20,694 nt of DNA, from positions 1-20,694 of the IMG/VR virus record IMGVR_UViG_3300020411_002662; one strand, 5' to 3'. Numbering within the stretch: the stretch's first letter is position 1; every line of letters starts with the position of its first letter. Shown piece after piece: positions 4,488 through 19,877 of this stretch. Source of the DNA: a virus. A program made the position numbers and the translations under genes. The notes under the pieces were generated by a model. It was not told where the DNA came from, did not search any database, and saw only the letters and a program-made list of their open reading frames with translations.

Positions 4488-6575
4488 TTATGCTCGGACT
4501 ATGCGATCAGGAGCAATGAGTCCCTTTACCGTCTGTGCGCCAAGGCGTCCAATCTCTTTTTTACCATCCGGAGACAAGTATAGTACAATTTCCGGTAAAT
4601 TTAAATCAATCTTCTGTTTCAATGACTGCTGAGCAAGGCGTTTGTCCCGTTCCTTGCGTGCCAACCCACCATAATCAAACACTGTCATCCCGGATTCACT
4701 ATCACGGGTGATTTGGTCGCCGGCGGGAACGCGCACCGCTTTCGACCAGTCGCCGTGGGGCATATAAATTCCGGGTCCGGCGACGCCATCATTCATCCAG
4801 CCTTGGGTGGCAAAATCGAAGAGTCCACTACCCATCAGAAAGCCGAGGGTTCCGGCTGCCGCTTTACCCCAAAATCCGCCGGGGGCGCGCCCTGCCATCT
4901 TGAGGGCTTTCATTATTGCCGCAGAGCCGAGAAAACCCGATGCCAGACTACCAATACCCTTGGCAGCACCGGTGATCCCACCTTGTTGATATCCCACGAT
5001 AGCAGCCATAAAGCCCGCCGCAATACGAGCAAAGCTCGATAACTTCGCCATCGCGGCGCCTAACTTGCTGACCTGTCCTGTGACCGCAGCTAATTTGCTG
5101 GCGGCTCTCCCCATCAGAATAAACGGCTGTACCGCTCCTTTAGCAAAAAGAGCGAGCAAAGCCACTTTCCCTGTCATCGTGTTAAGAATAGGGTTCAATA
5201 CGTTAGTAACCCCCGTTATCATATCCATCACCAAAGTAGTCACAGGCTCTAATGCAATATACATCTTCTCAAAACTTTCGGCCATTTTCTTTTGGGCTGA
5301 AGTAAACCTGGCGAGGTTCTCGGCGCGGTCTTGTTCATCTTTCTGGAGTTTGTAGGCTTCGATGGGATCTTTAAGAAGAGCCATTACCTCATCTACACCT
5401 CGTCCAGTAATCGCAGCTAACGCCTGACGCTCTCGAATAGAGATATTCTCATAAGATAACCCTACAGCAGTCAATTCCTCTCGTAAGATTCTTAATCTTT
5501 CCGCGGGATCCAAGGTTCCCATCAGTTCCATCGCATTAATCTGGGTACGAAACTGAGCATTAAGACGACCTGCCACATTAAAGGCAGATTCATAAGTATC
5601 AAACATTTCCGAAAGCCCAAAGGCTGATTCAGCGTCCATTCCGAACTGCCGTGCGGTCTTAATCAACTTGTTAAAGATGATCTCGGTGCTTTGTCCATAG
5701 CGGGCGAGTTGAGGACCTAATTTAGTAAGGCTTCCCATCACCTTAGCTAGAGATTGTCCTGACTCATCAGCCAGACGCTTCATAGCGTCCATCGTCGCAA
5801 GAGCGTTCTCAGTGGCCAAACCAAAACCGCGAGTCAAAAGGTGCAAGGCTTGCGAGGTCTGTTCAGGGGCGACCCCTAAACGCAAAAATTCACCTGCCAG
5901 GTTTTCAGTAATACGTTGCGCGTCGTCACCCAGAGCATTAAACTCTAAAAAGGTGTTCGATAAAGAGCCGATCACCTGGTTGCTTTCAGCCATACTTAGT
6001 TGTAGCCTATCGTTGTTTGCTAACTCTAGCATTTGCGAACCGAAGCGGTTGGCGTAGCCAGTGGTTACAGCCAGATTGGCTCGGAGTTCGTCAAATGCAT
6101 GCCCCTGTTGGAGGACACTTTTGGTAAACTGAGTCGAATTGGCAAAGAGCTTTCCTTGTACTCCTAAAAATGCGGCTGTGAAGTCTATAGCCTGAGAAAC
6201 AGTTTGGTTGAACGCCGAGAGCGCCGCACGCTCTTCCTGTTTAAGTTTAATGTTTTCTCGTGCCTGCCTCAGGAGGTCTTGGTTTCTATCAAATAAGTCT
6301 TTCTCTAGTTTGTTAGTTGTTTCTAGCTCAGATCCAAGAGTGACTACCTTGGCGGTTAAATCGTCTAATAGATCCCTATATTCGGTTGCACCTTCCGAGA
6401 CAAGATCAGTTAATTCTGCCTGTTGTGCAAGGAGGGACTGATATTCACGGAGAGATGTGTTTGTCTTTAACTGGATGGCCTGTTTACGCTCTTCAACAGC
6501 TAGCACACGCTGCGCTTCTCGCAGTTCTTGTTCTAACTGTTGTAACCGAGTGTTGTTACTGGAGTCGTCTGCCAC
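4488..6575 (-). CDS. Tail tape measure protein (gp29-like role)
   Basis: This 695-residue protein has the layout of a tape measure. Residues 1-130 form a long charged coiled coil rich in Leu, Gln, Glu and Arg, followed by a helical middle section. Hydrophobic Ala/Gly/Leu-rich segments at roughly 445-500 and 540-600 (for example VALLALFAKGAVQPFILMG) are typical of membrane-interacting tape measure regions. The C-terminus is soluble and ends in IAPDRIVRA. Tape measures set tail length and are later ejected with the DNA. It lies after tube, tail-assembly protein and frameshifted ORF, the order common in long-tailed phages. At about 0.15 nm per helical residue the length would match a tail near 100 nm, which is an inference. 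The start is GTG 6575, seven bases after AGGAGG, which overlaps the preceding gene's TAG stop. T4 gp29 is about 590 aa. Confidence 0.82.
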   Translation of the reverse strand: MADDSSNNTRLQQLEQELREAQRVLAVEERKQAIQLKTNTSLREYQSLLAQQAELTDLVSEGATEYRDLLDDLTAKVVTLGSELETTNKLEKDLFDRNQDLLRQARENIKLKQEERAALSAFNQTVSQAIDFTAAFLGVQGKLFANSTQFTKSVLQQGHAFDELRANLAVTTGYANRFGSQMLELANNDRLQLSMAESNQVIGSLSNTFLEFNALGDDAQRITENLAGEFLRLGVAPEQTSQALHLLTRGFGLATENALATMDAMKRLADESGQSLAKVMGSLTKLGPQLARYGQSTEIIFNKLIKTARQFGMDAESAFGLSEMFDTYESAFNVAGRLNAQFRTQINAMELMGTLDPAERLRILREELTAVGLSYENISIRERQALAAITGRGVDEVMALLKDPIEAYKLQKDEQDRAENLARFTSAQKKMAESFEKMYIALEPVTTLVMDMITGVTNVLNPILNTMTGKVALLALFAKGAVQPFILMGRAASKLAAVTGQVSKLGAAMAKLSSFARIAAGFMAAIVGYQQGGITGAAKGIGSLASGFLGSAAIMKALKMAGRAPGGFWGKAAAGTLGFLMGSGLFDFATQGWMNDGVAGPGIYMPHGDWSKAVRVPAGDQITRDSESGMTVFDYGGLARKERDKRLAQQSLKQKIDLNLPEIVLYLSPDGKKEIGRLGAQTVKGLIAPDRIVRA

Positions 6576-6586
6576 GATTCAGCCTC

Positions 6587-6916
6587 CTAATTACGAATAG
6601 GCCACGCGATCTTAGCTTCGCGTTCGAATCGTTTAATCGCCACATCCAGTTTAGCTTTCTGAGAATAGGTCATCGGATTGTCGAGTCCATACTTTTTAAT
6701 ATAGTCCATATACCTTTTTTCGTTGACCAACGCATCTGTAAAGCTGGCGACTTCTATGCGATTACCCCGCACTCGTACTGGAATGCGACGCCCTTTGTAC
6801 ATTTTAGAAAGAAGGTATTCAATCCACGCCGCAAAAACATTCAAAATATTTTCGTTTAGCACTGGGCCTTTGAAATCATTGAGATTTAAATCTTGGTTTT
6901 CAAAATCACGATCCAC
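6587..6916 (-). CDS. Small protein of unknown function in tail operon
   Basis: This 109-residue protein starts at GTG 6916, six bases after a strong AAAGGAGGT. It has a helical N-terminal half (ILNVFAAWIEYLLSKMYKG), a short basic beta-looking stretch (RIPVRVRGNRIEV), then a charged helical end containing EKRYMDYIKKYGLDNP and FEREAKIAWPIRN. No catalytic motif, signal peptide or membrane segment is visible. It lies between the frameshifted tail-assembly ORF and the tape measure, and its stop codon overlaps the tape measure's ribosome binding site. Similar small ORFs with an 'EKRYMD...GLDNP...W' pattern seem to occur in tail clusters of other large T4-like phages, but that is recollection. A chaperone or minor tail role is plausible. 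I do not recognise a named family. Confidence 0.7.
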   Translation of the reverse strand: MDRDFENQDLNLNDFKGPVLNENILNVFAAWIEYLLSKMYKGRRIPVRVRGNRIEVASFTDALVNEKRYMDYIKKYGLDNPMTYSQKAKLDVAIKRFEREAKIAWPIRN

Positions 6917-6958: not shown

Positions 6959-7249
6959 TTATTTTAAGTTATAAGTTCGACCGCGGTTAGTTTGAGGGGT
7001 GGAAGTTTGCCCTACCTGTTTATTGATGGCTTCAGCTTCTTCATGCTTTTGCTTAATGAGACGGGTCAAAAACCATCGGCGGATGCGGATCGGCAAGTTA
7101 TAGACCTCAAAAAAGCTCCAGCCGCCATAATATTTTAATTGAAAAGCTTCTTCATAGACCGATTCAATATATGCATCATTTAGGCCAAAAAAAGTCAGTA
7201 GTGAGCGGCACCTCCAGGGCCGCTTCGTATTGACATTCGTTACACACAT
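6959..7249 (-). CDS. Frameshift-expressed C-terminal part of tail-assembly protein
   Basis: This 96-codon frame overlaps the end of the gp26-like gene in another frame. Its only Met codon (7249) lies inside the CNEC zinc-site coding sequence of the upstream gene and has no ribosome binding site, and there is no other Met, so independent initiation looks unlikely. The probable translated part begins at 7186, just after seven T, reading GLNDAYIESVYEEAFQLKYY, then GGWSFFEVYNLP, then IRIRRWFLTRLIKQ and a polar tail. That pattern (aromatic, then LP.R.RRWFL..LI.Q) is typical of the T part of GT-type tail chaperones and of small ORFs just before tape measures. Fused to the upstream frame it would give about 367 residues (+1) or 368 (-2). 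It would bind the tape measure during tail assembly. A sequencing error in the T run is the main alternative. Confidence 0.68.
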   Translation of the reverse strand: MCVTNVNTKRPWRCRSLLTFFGLNDAYIESVYEEAFQLKYYGGWSFFEVYNLPIRIRRWFLTRLIKQKHEEAEAINKQVGQTSTPQTNRGRTYNLK

Positions 7250-8063
7250 AGGTGTGGGTTAGGTCGATATTAGGAGTAATCTCACGATAGACGGTTCGTA
7301 GATAGCGTGCATCCCGAGCCGGCATCGTATTAATAAAAGAAATCCTAGTCAGCGGGGAATCATCACCATTAACACTGATGATGAAACTTCTAAACTGATC
7401 GGTCGTGGAAGTACTTTGTTGCTTGTGTTTGGCTTTACGCTGAAGATCTTTAACGAGATTCATTTCGTCCTGCGACGTTAACAGCTTACACTCTACTGTC
7501 GCTTGGGTCATAGGCAATTCTATCAAAAAAGTATTATGAGGAGTTTGAGTAACTCCAAACTGTTCGAGCGCTGACTCGTGATCGCTGACCATGGGTTCCG
7601 AAATGTCAAAAGTGTGATCATCAGTATTCCCGCACGAAGGACACGTCATTGAGGTTACATATTCTTCGCCATATCCCGTAATCCGCGCAGCTACCAACAA
7701 CGCGTTTTTATCACCAATCATTAATGTATCCACATCAACGCGGCGATCCACAATAACACTCTGCAACATACGATCCAAAGCCAAGCCTTCTTTTAAGAGG
7801 GCTCGCGAGCTTAATATATCTTCTTCTTTCGCTGTCATATAGCGAATTTCGAGCGTATCTTGATTGTACAAGGGATGATCACTCGGGTAAAATGCCCCTC
7901 TGCTCGGCAGTGACACAAACTCACTAGGGACAGACCACGCCATTGGAGGGGCTTCATTCCCAGACGGGTGGTGAGGAGGCATTTGGGGGGCGACTGCCGC
8001 AGTTACGTCTGCATCCTCCGGCGTCGTATCAAAAATATCAGTTCGTCCTTCATTGCGACTCAT
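7176..8063 (-). CDS. Tail-assembly/baseplate hub protein, gp26-like, with Cys4 site
   Basis: The protein has 295 residues. A proline-rich polar N-terminus (1-45) leads into SLPSRGAFYP and LEIRYMTAKEEDILSSRALL, the hallmark start of the T4 gp26 (baseplate hub) family. A four-cysteine site, CPSC at 141-144 and CNEC at 274-277, probably binds zinc. The zero-frame product ends TTDFFWPK. T4 gp26 acts in central hub assembly. In this position, between tube and tape measure, the gene corresponds to lambda G-type tail chaperones, with the overlapping downstream frame as its T extension. The start is ATG 8063, seven bases after GAAAGG. It is longer than T4 gp26 (208 aa), mainly in the N-terminal tail and middle. 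The gp26 family call is fairly strong; the chaperone role is inferred from order and the frameshift layout. Confidence 0.8.
   Translation of the reverse strand: MSRNEGRTDIFDTTPEDADVTAAVAPQMPPHHPSGNEAPPMAWSVPSEFVSLPSRGAFYPSDHPLYNQDTLEIRYMTAKEEDILSSRALLKEGLALDRMLQSVIVDRRVDVDTLMIGDKNALLVAARITGYGEEYVTSMTCPSCGNTDDHTFDISEPMVSDHESALEQFGVTQTPHNTFLIELPMTQATVECKLLTSQDEMNLVKDLQRKAKHKQQSTSTTDQFRSFIISVNGDDSPLTRISFINTMPARDARYLRTVYREITPNIDLTHTYVCNECQYEAALEVPLTTDFFWPK
7187..7193 (-). other. Putative programmed frameshift site (run of seven T)
   Basis: The zero frame reads GAC TTT TTT TGG CCT AAA TGA. The downstream frame needs a +1 shift (TTT TTT T GGC) or a -2 shift. The Phe tRNA on the second TTT can re-pair perfectly after either a +1 or a -2 move. 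The zero frame ends only four codons after the shift point. RNA-polymerase slippage on the T run would give the same fusion. Confidence 0.6.
7210..7215 (-). promoter_or_regulatory. Internal Shine-Dalgarno-like GGAGGT upstream of shift site
   Basis: A perfect GGAGGT lies inside the gp26-like coding sequence, 16 nt before the seven-T run. No start codon follows at a suitable distance, so it is not an obvious initiation site. Internal Shine-Dalgarno sequences stimulate frameshifting in dnaX and prfB. A spacing this long fits backward slippage better than the very short spacing used for prfB +1 shifting. It may also be chance. Confidence 0.3.
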
Positions 8064-8132: not shown

Positions 8133-8702
8133 TTAGACATTGCTAGCAGCAGCCGTCGGAGCCATGCGGTGCTGTTGAGTATAGGTCAAACGCGCCCAAT
8201 CATAGGTCACTTCAACCGTTACTTCATTCATATCGTCAGCGGCATAATCCAATGCGCCACCAAAATCAACACTCGTAATAAAAGGATTGACAAGTTCCCA
8301 CTTTTCAATCTCTTTCCCTTCGTCGTCAATCTGGCGAATAAAAACGCTACCTAGCGTGGCGGCGAACCGCTCCTTGCTCAAACTAAATTTGGCTTGTGTG
8401 GAAGTGGTAGGATACTTGTATCCAGCAAATCCGAGAACATCAAGGAAAGCCCAACAAAGATCCGGTTCAACTGGATCTACCAAAGTAACAGTGATGGGAT
8501 CCCAGGTCACGCGACCCGGATATTTAAAAACGTGATCAATGTACTGGTGTTCAATCGTACTCACATTAGCCTTGGGCTTCATTGCAGTCTTGATTGTCCA
8601 GACTGGAATTTGATCATTATTTGTACGGTTTGTAAAACCCAGTTCAAATCGAAACCTGCGTTTCGGATCTGTTTTAACATCACTCCAAAATAGACTCGCC
8701 AT
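8133..8702 (-). CDS. Tail tube protein, gp19-like
   Basis: This 189-residue protein is the probable subunit of the inner tail tube, through which DNA passes and around which the sheath assembles. It opens with the tube-family pattern of an N-terminal strand (RRFRFELGF), then a variable loop and PGRVTWDPITVTLVDPVEPD, where the WDPITVT strand is diagnostic. The C-terminal half has FITSVDFGGALDYAADDMNE followed by VTVEVTYDWARLTY, the usual final strand before a short tail. T4 gp19 has 163 residues, so this one is slightly longer. It follows the sheath gene directly, as 18-19 do in T4. ATG 8702 is preceded by AAGGAGA. The hairpin just after the stop may give this abundant product a separate mRNA end. 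Confidence 0.9.
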   Translation of the reverse strand: MASLFWSDVKTDPKRRFRFELGFTNRTNNDQIPVWTIKTAMKPKANVSTIEHQYIDHVFKYPGRVTWDPITVTLVDPVEPDLCWAFLDVLGFAGYKYPTTSTQAKFSLSKERFAATLGSVFIRQIDDEGKEIEKWELVNPFITSVDFGGALDYAADDMNEVTVEVTYDWARLTYTQQHRMAPTAAASNV

Positions 8703-8740: not shown

Positions 8741-11700
8741 TTAATCTTCAAAAGAAGCTCCACTATTAGTGACAACAAAGTCAATAGCAAAGAACTCCGC
8801 AGCGCGAGTTGGCTTCACCATCAGCTTCGCATAGATAATGTTTCGATCAATCAGATCAGGCGTGGTGGTCGTATCATCAAGAATCAACGTAAAGTCCTCG
8901 ACGCCGAACTCAGCCTTCACGCTTTCGAGCAAAGGATTGGCTTGACCAAGGAAACGATCCCAGGTCAATTGAGTATTCGGTGCGAAGATCAGTCGCGATG
9001 CGATGAAGGAAATCTCACGCTTGAGATAGATCATCAACCTTCTAACATTAATGCGGTCTAGCGCGGAAGCCGTTTGTTGAAGGGTTTTCTGTCCGTAAAT
9101 GACGATGCCTTCAGCAGGGAACTTAGCAATAGGATTAATGTTATTTTCGTAAAGTAAATCACGATCATCCGAGGTAAGGCGTCGTGAAACATCTACCACC
9201 GGAATGCCGCCAGCGCCTTCACTCAAGCCGCCTCGTGTAAAGCCAGCCGGTGCAAACCAGGGTGCCTGGGCGCGATCAGTTGTTGAGAGAACCCCAAGCG
9301 CCGCAATGCTCGGAGGTGCCCACAGTGACTGATTCGCAATAGTGTCAGTGATACGCACCCAAGGGTAATACGTGGCACCATAACTATTATTGATTGCTCG
9401 TGATGTTAGCGCGGTAACTGCTGCCTCTGGAGTATTTCCTTCGTTGCGGGCTTCCGCCGAGGCGCTCGATTCGGTATCAGGCGTATATGCTTTTTCGATA
9501 TCGATAATAGCCAACGTGTCGCCACGCTCTTGAGCCGTCTCTAGGAGATAATTGGTCACCTCCGGCGAAACAATGCCCGGCATCGCGACCGCGTTCATCT
9601 GCACGTAATCCGGATCGGACACAATGTCGATGGCTTTTCTCAAGGTGTACAGAGTAGAAGAGGTATCTACCGTATCGCTGGTTGTGATAGTGCGGGCAGC
9701 AAAAGGATCACGTTCAGTAATATCATACCCGTCAGTACCGCCTGCCAACACAGTCGTAAAGCGGTCGATGCCCAACTTCAAGACCGACACATAGCTTTGC
9801 CCACTCTTCGCTGTGAGACTGTTGCCATTGCGACGGCTCTTAGGAGTGTAAGATACGGTTCCCTTTAGCTTAGAGTTCGCAATGGTACCGCTCACATTAT
9901 CCAGAGAGAACACCCATGGAAGAGCAATAGGATCGGCATTAAAAGAGGCCGTAGCGGGATTATAAGCCACCGCGGCGCTTTTAAACCCATCGTTAATCTG
10001 GTGATTAGTGCTATAAGGGTTAACATCGAGTCCCGGCTGTCGAGCCCGGAGATAGTCGGGGATGCCCAGATCATAGAAAGTGTCGGTGAAGGTTCGCCCT
10101 GTCCAAACACCCCAATAAGTAGCTCTTAGGCTGCGTGGGGTACCCTGGGTGCTTTTCATTCTCAAAGGGATTCCCGGAAACTGGATCGTCGCTCTAAGAT
10201 TCTCAAAGCGGTTGGCGTTAAGTAAGTTGGCGATGCCCTTTCCGGTTCTTGTCTGTCCGCCGACTCCCAAAATGGCGGCATTGCCACCAGCTACCATCGA
10301 AACCACGTTGGTAGTTCCACTAGCGGGAACAATCAGGTTATTAGACCAGTTATATGATTCAACTCCATCAGCATTGAGGTCCGCACCACCCAAGGAAAAG
10401 TAGCTAACATCCTTGTATTTGAGGGGTCCGAACACTCCAAAGGGCAACCAGCGTCTTTCACCGGTACCTTTGGCTACATCCTCATCCATCACGACGCGGA
10501 TATAGTTTGAGACATTATCAAACTCGCCATATTGTACCAACCGCTTTTCAGTCTCATCGTAAACTTCGTACTTGTCTCCGATGATGCGAGCCACATAATT
10601 AGGACTCATCGGGTTGAGACTCAGTTGGTCATAGCGTTCGATAATCTGGGGGTTTGCGTCCGTATCCGAGATTTTCCGCACCAAAATGGAGAAAGTTCCG
10701 AAGTCAGTAAAATCACCTTCCGCAGCGCGGATATTGGAAATAGAAATTTTGATAGTGCGCTGGAAGTCTTCGCCGGCAGTAAGAGCCTCAAGGCGGAAGA
10801 GCTTCTGCATATCCTGGGCGCGGTAAGATCCGGTATTGGTGCTTAAATCTTGAGCAATAAACCAGCCGGTAGAGGCGCGCTTAGCAGCCGCTCGCCATTT
10901 GGACTGCTGTCCGGTTTGACTATAAGCCGTATCAGTGCCGGCTGCGCCGCTGAATTGTGTCAAGGGGAATATAGCTGCCATTACTCCAGACACTGCGGTG
11001 CCTCCTGAGCGTACGGCCATCATCCCCAAGCTGGTGCTTCCTGTGGCGAGGCATCGCCTCTCGAAAGTTTCACCGAGCCAGTAATTCCCACCCTGGAAAT
11101 AGGTGCGGGTAGCTGCTGTGGTAATAGCCGAATTCGTAATGGTTGGATTAGTATTCAGAACCTTGCGAATAAAATTGGATTCGCCAGGGTTGAGACTCAC
11201 TGTAGCTTCTTTGGCGTAATTGCTTCCGGTAAAGCGCAACTTAATGCTGTTAATATCCGGAAATTCAAAGAGGGTTGAGCCCTGAGCAGAACTGCTGTTA
11301 TTCAGTCCAACAACCGACCCCGACAGAATAACTCGACTAGTGGGGCAATAAAACTGCGCGGCCATCACGCCATCTACTAGGGTATTCGCGGATGAGGAGG
11401 GCCAAACCACCAAACCATATGCGCCACCTTTGACAACCGAGTTGTCCACCACATTGCCGGCTTCCCAGCCAGCTTTGCCCGTAGCATCGGCAGCACTGGA
11501 CTCATCGCCCAATGGGCGCAAGAAAGTAATAGGAGAGTTGTTTCTTAACCAAGCTTGGGCTGCATAGGCAGCATACGTGGGAGCAGTTGTGTCTCCCTGT
11601 CTCCACACGTCAGTCGCGGCGTTGCCAGGAACAGGATTCCCAAACGTTTCCACGAAATCGGAAAATGAATCTATAACCACAGGAACGTTTGCTGGTCCAC

Positions 11701-11827
11701 GACGAGTGCGACCAATGATCAGGGGACCCACAGGACCCGGCAATGCGGGCAACTGCGAATTGTCCACTTCATTAACAAAAACTCCTGGCGAAATGAATTT
11801 AAATCTTCTTGCAGAGTTGTCAGCCAT
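8741..11827 (-). CDS. Contractile tail sheath protein, gp18-like, enlarged
   Basis: The 1028-residue product is the contractile sheath subunit. The N-terminus FISPGVFVNEVDNSQLP and the following GPVGPLIIGRTRRGPANVPV are the classic sheath entry motif, with FSDFVETFGNP after it. The last ~150 residues hold the conserved polymerisation domain: GIVIYGQKTLQ, then INVRRLMIYLKREI, then LTWDRFLGQANPLLESVKAE and the final strands IIYAKLMVKPTRAAEFFAID. T4 gp18 has 659 residues, so roughly 370 extra residues sit in the middle. They are Ser/Thr/Gly/Asn-rich and probably form protruding domains on the outer surface. ATG 11827 lies nine bases after GAGGAGA, downstream of a 121-nt gap, the second-longest in the window. 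Reading frame and family are secure; the role of the inserts is inferred. Confidence 0.95.
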   Translation of the reverse strand: MADNSARRFKFISPGVFVNEVDNSQLPALPGPVGPLIIGRTRRGPANVPVVIDSFSDFVETFGNPVPGNAATDVWRQGDTTAPTYAAYAAQAWLRNNSPITFLRPLGDESSAADATGKAGWEAGNVVDNSVVKGGAYGLVVWPSSSANTLVDGVMAAQFYCPTSRVILSGSVVGLNNSSSAQGSTLFEFPDINSIKLRFTGSNYAKEATVSLNPGESNFIRKVLNTNPTITNSAITTAATRTYFQGGNYWLGETFERRCLATGSTSLGMMAVRSGGTAVSGVMAAIFPLTQFSGAAGTDTAYSQTGQQSKWRAAAKRASTGWFIAQDLSTNTGSYRAQDMQKLFRLEALTAGEDFQRTIKISISNIRAAEGDFTDFGTFSILVRKISDTDANPQIIERYDQLSLNPMSPNYVARIIGDKYEVYDETEKRLVQYGEFDNVSNYIRVVMDEDVAKGTGERRWLPFGVFGPLKYKDVSYFSLGGADLNADGVESYNWSNNLIVPASGTTNVVSMVAGGNAAILGVGGQTRTGKGIANLLNANRFENLRATIQFPGIPLRMKSTQGTPRSLRATYWGVWTGRTFTDTFYDLGIPDYLRARQPGLDVNPYSTNHQINDGFKSAAVAYNPATASFNADPIALPWVFSLDNVSGTIANSKLKGTVSYTPKSRRNGNSLTAKSGQSYVSVLKLGIDRFTTVLAGGTDGYDITERDPFAARTITTSDTVDTSSTLYTLRKAIDIVSDPDYVQMNAVAMPGIVSPEVTNYLLETAQERGDTLAIIDIEKAYTPDTESSASAEARNEGNTPEAAVTALTSRAINNSYGATYYPWVRITDTIANQSLWAPPSIAALGVLSTTDRAQAPWFAPAGFTRGGLSEGAGGIPVVDVSRRLTSDDRDLLYENNINPIAKFPAEGIVIYGQKTLQQTASALDRINVRRLMIYLKREISFIASRLIFAPNTQLTWDRFLGQANPLLESVKAEFGVEDFTLILDDTTTTPDLIDRNIIYAKLMVKPTRAAEFFAIDFVVTNSGASFED

Positions 11828-18866: not shown

Positions 18867-19877
18867 CTAACTGACCGATGCCAGCAAGTTGTTTGAAACT
18901 AACGCCCACTTACTTCCTGTCCAAATGAATTTAAGGGCAGCACCGAGCATATCAGGCTCAATGGCCATAAAACTGATTTTGTTCCCTCCAGACAGAATAT
19001 TAGAAGTATTAATCATAATTCCCTGTCCATTGGTGGCAGTGGTCATAATAAGTTGTAAAATCTGTCCGGCAGTGGTGCCACTAGCTAAACTCATAGTGTG
19101 CATACCTGCGTCACCGGTGATGGAAGTAGCGGTGAGAAGATGCACTGAACTGGCAGGTGTCAGTGTACTTGTCGTTTGATTCCCTAAATCTGTTGTGGTC
19201 GTTCCGTGGATAACCTCCCCAGAAAATTTAGCGTCGCCGTCAACATCCAAATCAACACTAGGCAATGTTGTGCCAATGCCCACCCTGTTGTTTCCGGCAT
19301 CGACGTGTAACACCACCTGTCCGTTATCCGCCATCACTTTCGTATCGTAGTTTGCGTTGGCATTGTTTAGTACAATGTCGGACCCATCAAACTTAAAAAC
19401 AGATTTTCCATCTGCGACTAAATTAATTTTACCATTGTCGGGGAAACTAATACGAGTATCAACATCTCCGTTGTGGCGGATGTGCTCATCTATTGCCATG
19501 CTTCCTGCTATGACAAGTTTGTAGCCCGGAGAATCTGTCCCGATACCTACTTTACCATTAGCATTTATCACCATCGCCGGGGTGGCTTCTGATCCCGCCT
19601 TGAAATCCAGACTATCATCACCGTAGTTATTAAATATAATCCACTTTCTTGTGCCGTTCTCGTGAAATTCAAGACCGGGGTGGCTGTCGGTGTCGCCGTT
19701 TATTTTAATTCTAGCGTCGTCGCCGCTGATCTGAAGACTTGTGCCTTGTTGCTCAACGCTGCCGGTGATTCGAATTAGATCGTCGGCTGTGTTTCCAAGA
19801 ATTATTTTGCCGTCAGCGGTAGCCCTAAAACCCCACGAACCGTCATCATCCTTTGACCCATAACCTACTCCAGACAT
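18867..19877 (-). CDS. Fibre-like repeat protein in the head operon
   Basis: The protein has 336 residues and is rich in Gly, Asp, Asn and short beta strands. Two copies of a tail-fibre/adhesin-type repeat are visible: NGKVGIGTDSPGYKLVIAG at about 107-125 and NNRVGIGTTLPSVDLDVDG at about 197-215. Related shorter motifs (DGKIILGNTADD, DNGKINLVADGK, DNGQVVLHVDAGN) occur throughout. The last ~100 residues form a separate domain with VHLLTATSITGDAGMHTMSL and a closing FIWTGSKWALVSNN strand pair. Such repeats build trimeric beta-structured shafts in tail fibres and surface proteins. The gene starts at ATG 19877, overlapping the protease stop as TAATG, so it belongs to the head operon. A head fibre or capsid-surface appendage is therefore as likely as a tail fibre. 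No chaperone-cleavage domain is evident. Confidence 0.75.
   Translation of the reverse strand: MSGVGYGSKDDDGSWGFRATADGKIILGNTADDLIRITGSVEQQGTSLQISGDDARIKINGDTDSHPGLEFHENGTRKWIIFNNYGDDSLDFKAGSEATPAMVINANGKVGIGTDSPGYKLVIAGSMAIDEHIRHNGDVDTRISFPDNGKINLVADGKSVFKFDGSDIVLNNANANYDTKVMADNGQVVLHVDAGNNRVGIGTTLPSVDLDVDGDAKFSGEVIHGTTTTDLGNQTTSTLTPASSVHLLTATSITGDAGMHTMSLASGTTAGQILQLIMTTATNGQGIMINTSNILSGGNKISFMAIEPDMLGAALKFIWTGSKWALVSNNLLASVS

Follow-up and report, generated by a model that had tools for sequence, protein, structure and literature searches.

In tail-assembly chaperones of the G/GT type, the G part binds the tape measure protein, the T part binds the tail tube, and both are absent from virions. 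Phage lambda makes its pair, gpG and gpGT, as a short protein and a frameshift-extended long form from a locus between the tail tube and tape measure genes, while T4 is described as an exception to chaperone frameshifting among long-tailed phages (PMC5009743). A passage of PMC10885494 that cites Vladimirov et al. 2022 (Virology 566:9) describes some T4-like phages as having, in place of a frameshift, one short gene and a second, longer one that is a fusion. Pakpunavirus Adele and its relatives end the short chaperone of a myovirus at a Phe/poly-T site, where the shift is -1 at an invariant GTTTTT; the study describing it also points to -1 signals of the poly-T kind in TAC genes of T4-like phages (PMC12846349). 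Shifts of +1 in phage structural or tail genes are represented by Listeria phage PSA, whose sites are Pro CCC codons in capsid and tail shaft genes, and by the archaeal virus HSTV-2, a myovirus with a presumed +1 G-T shift (PMC5009743). In bacteria, UUU_Ynn sequences are described as shifting +1 with particular ease (PMC5009743), and mass spectrometry shows a +1 shift at UUU_CGU, the influenza PA-X site (PMC3498833); in both cases P-site tRNA-Phe can re-pair on UUU or UUC.

Here, we analyze a T4-like counterpart of these systems in the window, the whole 20,694-nt stretch of viral DNA examined (IMG/VR record IMGVR_UViG_3300020411_002662). The window is a genome fragment in which the locus sits within a T4-like block of structural genes: head maturation protease, gp23-like capsid protein, sheath, tube, chaperone locus, a 109-codon gene and tape measure (Table 1). 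The chaperone locus lies between the tail tube and tape measure genes, as in lambda, but lambda-type loci shift -1, whereas this one is offset +1 and its upstream protein belongs to the T4 gp26 family; it shares a Phe/poly-T site with Adele but not the -1 direction, and its Phe site differs from the CCC sites of PSA. We propose that programmed +1 frameshifting at UUU_Y very probably allows one gene to yield short and long tail-assembly chaperones of the G/GT type. Comparison among relatives points to this through a recurrent frame offset, a second frame that behaves as coding DNA, many relatives with no independent start, an invariant UUU_Y and the exclusion of U from the preceding position.

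Table 1. Positions of the chaperone locus and neighboring features in the window
Feature	Position	Strand	Remarks
0-frame ORF, T4 gp26-like short chaperone (G-like)	7176..8063	minus	295 aa; ATG 8063; stop TGA 7178..7176
Second ORF	7249..6959	minus	96 codons; +1 (= -2) frame relative to gp26-like frame
+1-frame extension, putative T-like domain of long form	6959..7186	minus	GLNDAY...NLK, 75 aa; stop TAA 6961..6959
Seven-T run	7193..7187	minus	
Slip-site codons TTT TTT, T after each	7188..7193	minus	proposed tRNA-Phe +1 re-pairing on UUU
TGG (Trp)	7185..7187	minus	A-site codon with second Phe codon in P site
C preceding T run	7194	minus	position where +1 relatives never have U
GGAGG, candidate upstream stimulator	7215..7211	minus	17 nt before first T / first Phe codon
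109-codon gene	6916..6587	minus	strong SD; between chaperone locus and tape measure
Tape measure gene	6575..4488	minus	
Tail tube gene	8702..8133	minus	
Sheath protein	8741-11827	minus	1028 aa
Tail-fibre-like protein	18867-19877	minus	phrog_9942, E 3e-7

The 0-frame protein is a member of PF12322 (T4_baseplate), the family of T4 gp26 and gp51 (E 1.2e-12; 48.5 bits against a curated cut-off of 24.5), and also matches phrog_150, baseplate hub. Its gene ends GAC TTT TTT TGG CCT AAA TGA, encoding a TTDFFWPK terminus shortly after the seven-T run as the original prediction had stated, and the coordinates and the +1/-2 frame relation that it gave for the second ORF proved correct. Equally as claimed, the second ORF has a single Met, an ATG at 7249..7247 that falls where the second zinc-site stretch (YVCNECQY) is encoded, and no Shine-Dalgarno sequence is present there. 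Profile searches gave no convincing family for the 109-codon gene. Elsewhere in the window, matches of the sheath protein to the sheath domain are confined to its C-terminal third, and the tail-fibre-like protein adjoins the head maturation protease rather than the tail genes.

To compare this junction with others, we gathered relatives by several IMG/VR searches and from genomes of isolated and uncultured phages, and ran a profile of the second-frame domain (alignment A1) in each of the three frames around the gp26 stop of 181 loci. The domain fell in the +1 frame in 172 of these, in the -1 frame in 2 and was undetected in 7, counts that include related sequences and are thus not fully independent; it was also +1 in 7 further contigs from bacterial MAGs. 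Across 62 independent pairs, substitutions at +1-frame codon positions 1:2:3 numbered 404:234:1065, a third-position bias indicating that the second frame behaves as coding DNA. The recurrent offset and the substitution bias together place this frame beyond chance. In a small phage test set the domain scored 92, 60 and 58 bits in the three nearest phages and 10-21 bits in GXN1, LIS04, SP-15 and BRock, in a database so small that bits are more telling than E-values. Public records of immuto, LIS04 and SP-15 (L093, L095, L097) annotate the +1 extension as a truncated separate gene or leave it unannotated; the second frame is misannotated or missing in several public genomes. RM378 was considered as a family member and rejected: although TTT TTT TGG is present and its +1 frame is open, the domain profile finds no match in the extension.

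One near relative, L065, carries TTC TTC TGG with no UUU_Y, a broken +1 frame and the domain in the -1 frame, and may represent an indel error or another solution. Such odd single cases, and the presence of a homopolymer in a metagenome contig, raise the idea that the T run was missequenced or misassembled, splitting what is truly one continuous frame. This explanation is refuted for the family by the same +1 offset in the isolate genomes Mel-JY01, immuto, SP-15, LIS04 and GXN1 and in more than 100 distinct contigs, and for the window it is barely conceivable.

In general, the extension frame does not have its own start. In 30 of 132 distinct loci, the stretch from the last +1-frame stop to the domain contains no ATG, GTG or TTG, and in 11 distinct loci a +1-frame stop directly precedes the slip site, so that the shift must fall in the few codons from there to the 0-frame stop. 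The conserved +1 peptide (alignment A1) opens FFGL, at the junction itself. We therefore consider it very unlikely that the second-frame protein is a separate product of independent initiation or re-initiation, even though the window has an in-frame ATG at 7249 and phage genes are often coupled through overlapping stops and starts: that ATG lacks a ribosome site, nearly a quarter of the distinct relatives have no candidate start ahead of the domain, and conservation begins right at the junction. When relatives were searched for a single continuous frame, or for a start codon with a ribosome site for the downstream ORF, neither was found. Overall, comparative evidence strongly supports the original proposal of a programmed frameshift that joins the gp26-like frame to a downstream tail-assembly frame.

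The junctions of 136 distinct loci fall into a few classes: TTT TTT TGG (84), TTT CTT TGG (32), TTC TTT TGG (4), TTT TTT TAC (4), TTT CTA TGG (3) and single cases of TTT CTA TTC, TTT CTT TAC, TTC TTT CGT, TTT TTT CAC, TTT TTT CGG, TTT TTT AGT and TTT TTT TTT. Every one of the 132 distinct +1 loci has an in-frame UUU with U or C as the next base, and 121 have TGG as the A-site codon. Thus, while the offset expected from the original prediction is conserved, the T run is not the conserved signal; UUU plus a pyrimidine is. tRNA-Phe (GAA) can read UUU as well as UUC, so any UUU_Y offers it a +1 re-pairing. Taken alone UUU_Y is weak evidence, since UUU is the commoner Phe codon here (572 of 737). 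We dropped CUU_U as a required second slip codon, as the TTT CTA relatives leave UUU_Y as the only common factor. The junction of Streptococcus phage GXN1, a streptococcal phage, contains the same UUU_CGU core as PA-X, which is a different gene and not from a phage; most of the phage sites instead have UGG in the A site.

Classes with short T runs also bear on RNA polymerase slippage, which would generate mRNAs with the frames already joined and for which a seven-T run is a possible site. In TTT CTT TGG, TTC TTT TGG and TTT CTA TGG the runs are of at most four T and the offset is unchanged, so neither polymerase slippage nor homopolymer error can account for the offset in general; we judge the former extremely unlikely. 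The original prediction had left the shift as either +1 or -2, which give an identical net frame. Were the shift along the T run -2, the kind seen in phage Mu, the product would read DFFFGLND rather than DFFGLND; TTT TTT T permits perfect -2 re-pairing, and a far-upstream SD-like element would be expected to pull the mRNA backward, not forward. Yet -2 re-pairing is unacceptable in the TTC TTT relatives (L004, L056, L068, L088 and GXN1), of which L004 belongs to the window's own GGAGG clade, and in the TTT CTA relatives (L092, L113, L124 and L135), and phage Mu is described as the sole natural example of programmed -2 shifting known (PMC3498833). Since these relatives keep the offset and UUU_Y fits all of them, +1 is favored and -2 is improbable.

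The base preceding the Phe codons provides a further mark of the +1 site. U is found there in 0 of 132 distinct +1 loci, against 60 expected from codon usage, and in 0 of 77 loci less than 75% identical, against 39 expected; in the latter set some nearby codons are poorer in T than expected, but none lacks it completely. A U in this position would create U_UUU and so allow -1 slippage. With their +1 offset and excluded U, these loci do not have the X_XXY_YYZ heptamer of a -1 G/GT shift. By contrast, Atu_ph07, Paride, L184/L185 and LR756511 all have U_UUU_UUC, a canonical -1 heptamer. The -1 frame is open after U_UUU_UUC in L099, L100, L184 and L096, which comprise the jumbo/megaphages Atu_ph07, Paride and LR756511 and an IMG/VR contig. 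Four distant jumbo/megaphage lineages thus appear to read a -1 version of the same joint, with the frame in Atu_ph07, Paride and L184/L185 assigned by eye or from the motif, as the domain profile is below significance there. The contrast in the preceding base between +1 and -1 loci, a matter of counts over sequences that are not fully independent, supports active control of the direction of slippage.

Upstream of the site, GGAGG stands exactly 17 nt away in 34 near-clade loci; it is the same element as the GGAGGT that had been placed 16 nt upstream. All 31 of the 31 distinct near-clade loci use GAG for its Glu residue, although GAA is commoner, and in every one of them the codon before it ends in G while coding for Met, Leu, Val or Arg. 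Together with the slip codons and the Pro codon, which is constrained by its overlap with the +1 frame, this Glu codon is among the least variable of 73 conserved columns. We therefore regard GGAGG as a candidate +1 stimulator in the near clade. The prfB (RF2) frameshift likewise couples P-site +1 slippage to an upstream SD-like element, and its CUU_U core recurs in the TTT CTT TGG class, but in prfB some 3 nt separate the element from the slip codon and the A-site codon is a stop, whereas here GGAGG is 17 nt from the first Phe codon and 20 nt from the second, and the window's A-site codon, UGG, is not a stop. GGAGG was not found at the 17-nt position in more distant clades. Some distant loci have an SD-like (A)GGAGG at 26 or 37 nt before the site (L066, L070, L074, L086; L060, L061, L069, L072). 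Downstream, there is no conserved RNA structure (mean z -0.45, against -0.47 in a control region). A strong hairpin of the GGGCCU...AGGCCC type lies just 3' of the slip site in one small clade (L049-L051, L064).

The extension weakly matches DUF6760 (PF20546), at 17.2 bits against a cut-off of 27, and 18 of 35 members match it weakly as well (best E 0.0007); DUF6760 was not found in three bacterial genomes searched, and PF12322 is present in just 2 of 198 bacterial genomes of one phylum. An AF2 model of the extension has three helices (pLDDT 82). A fold search with it returned nothing in the PDB below E 4 and nothing viral below E 0.008, its weak matches including two proteins annotated as tail/tape measure chaperones and a baseplate protein of KPV15. 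In T4, PF12322 is represented by two genes, gp26 and gp51, in line with the prediction's statement that genes 26 and 51 are separate there. Nine other isolate genomes searched whole have one or none over the cut-off (in Mel-JY01 and immuto, none by Pfam and one by tblastn), and three long contigs have one each. The two-gene arrangement of T4 was not seen among the relatives searched; in these phages an extra domain would be joined by the proposed frameshift.

We infer that slippage occurs, at a level at which most ribosomes would read the gp26-like frame to its ...DFFWPK terminus and release the 295-aa, G-like short form. In a fraction of ribosomes, tRNA-Phe in the P site would release the mRNA and re-pair one base forward on UUU, and translation would go on with GGC CUA... 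in the +1 frame to give a GT-like long form, ...DFFGLND...NLK, of about 367 aa. The position before the tape measure gene, the predicted short and long products and the small, modeled helical extension match G/GT tail-assembly chaperones. As in lambda, the extra helical domain would connect tail tube subunits with the tape measure protein that the G part holds.

Frameshifted chaperones are already known, and -1 shifts near the PF12322 family may be known as well; +1 shifting at UUU_Y in a T4-like group appears to be the new element, since we found no report of a +1 site in the gp26/PF12322 chaperone family in a limited set of open literature. A broader reading, which we regard as evenly balanced, is that the family follows three routes: a large environmental T4-like group shifts +1 at UUU_Y, jumbo/megaphages shift -1 at U_UUU_UUC, and T4 has two genes, with the preceding base marking direction and GGAGG at 17-20 nt stimulating the +1 shift in the near clade. 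The more than 100 natural variants of the junction offer material for study of +1 slippage and of the determinants of shift direction. A large T4-like environmental group appears to frameshift its chaperone forward, the rarer direction, at a site that is both simple and widely conserved, which suggests how frameshifting and gene duplication can substitute for one another.
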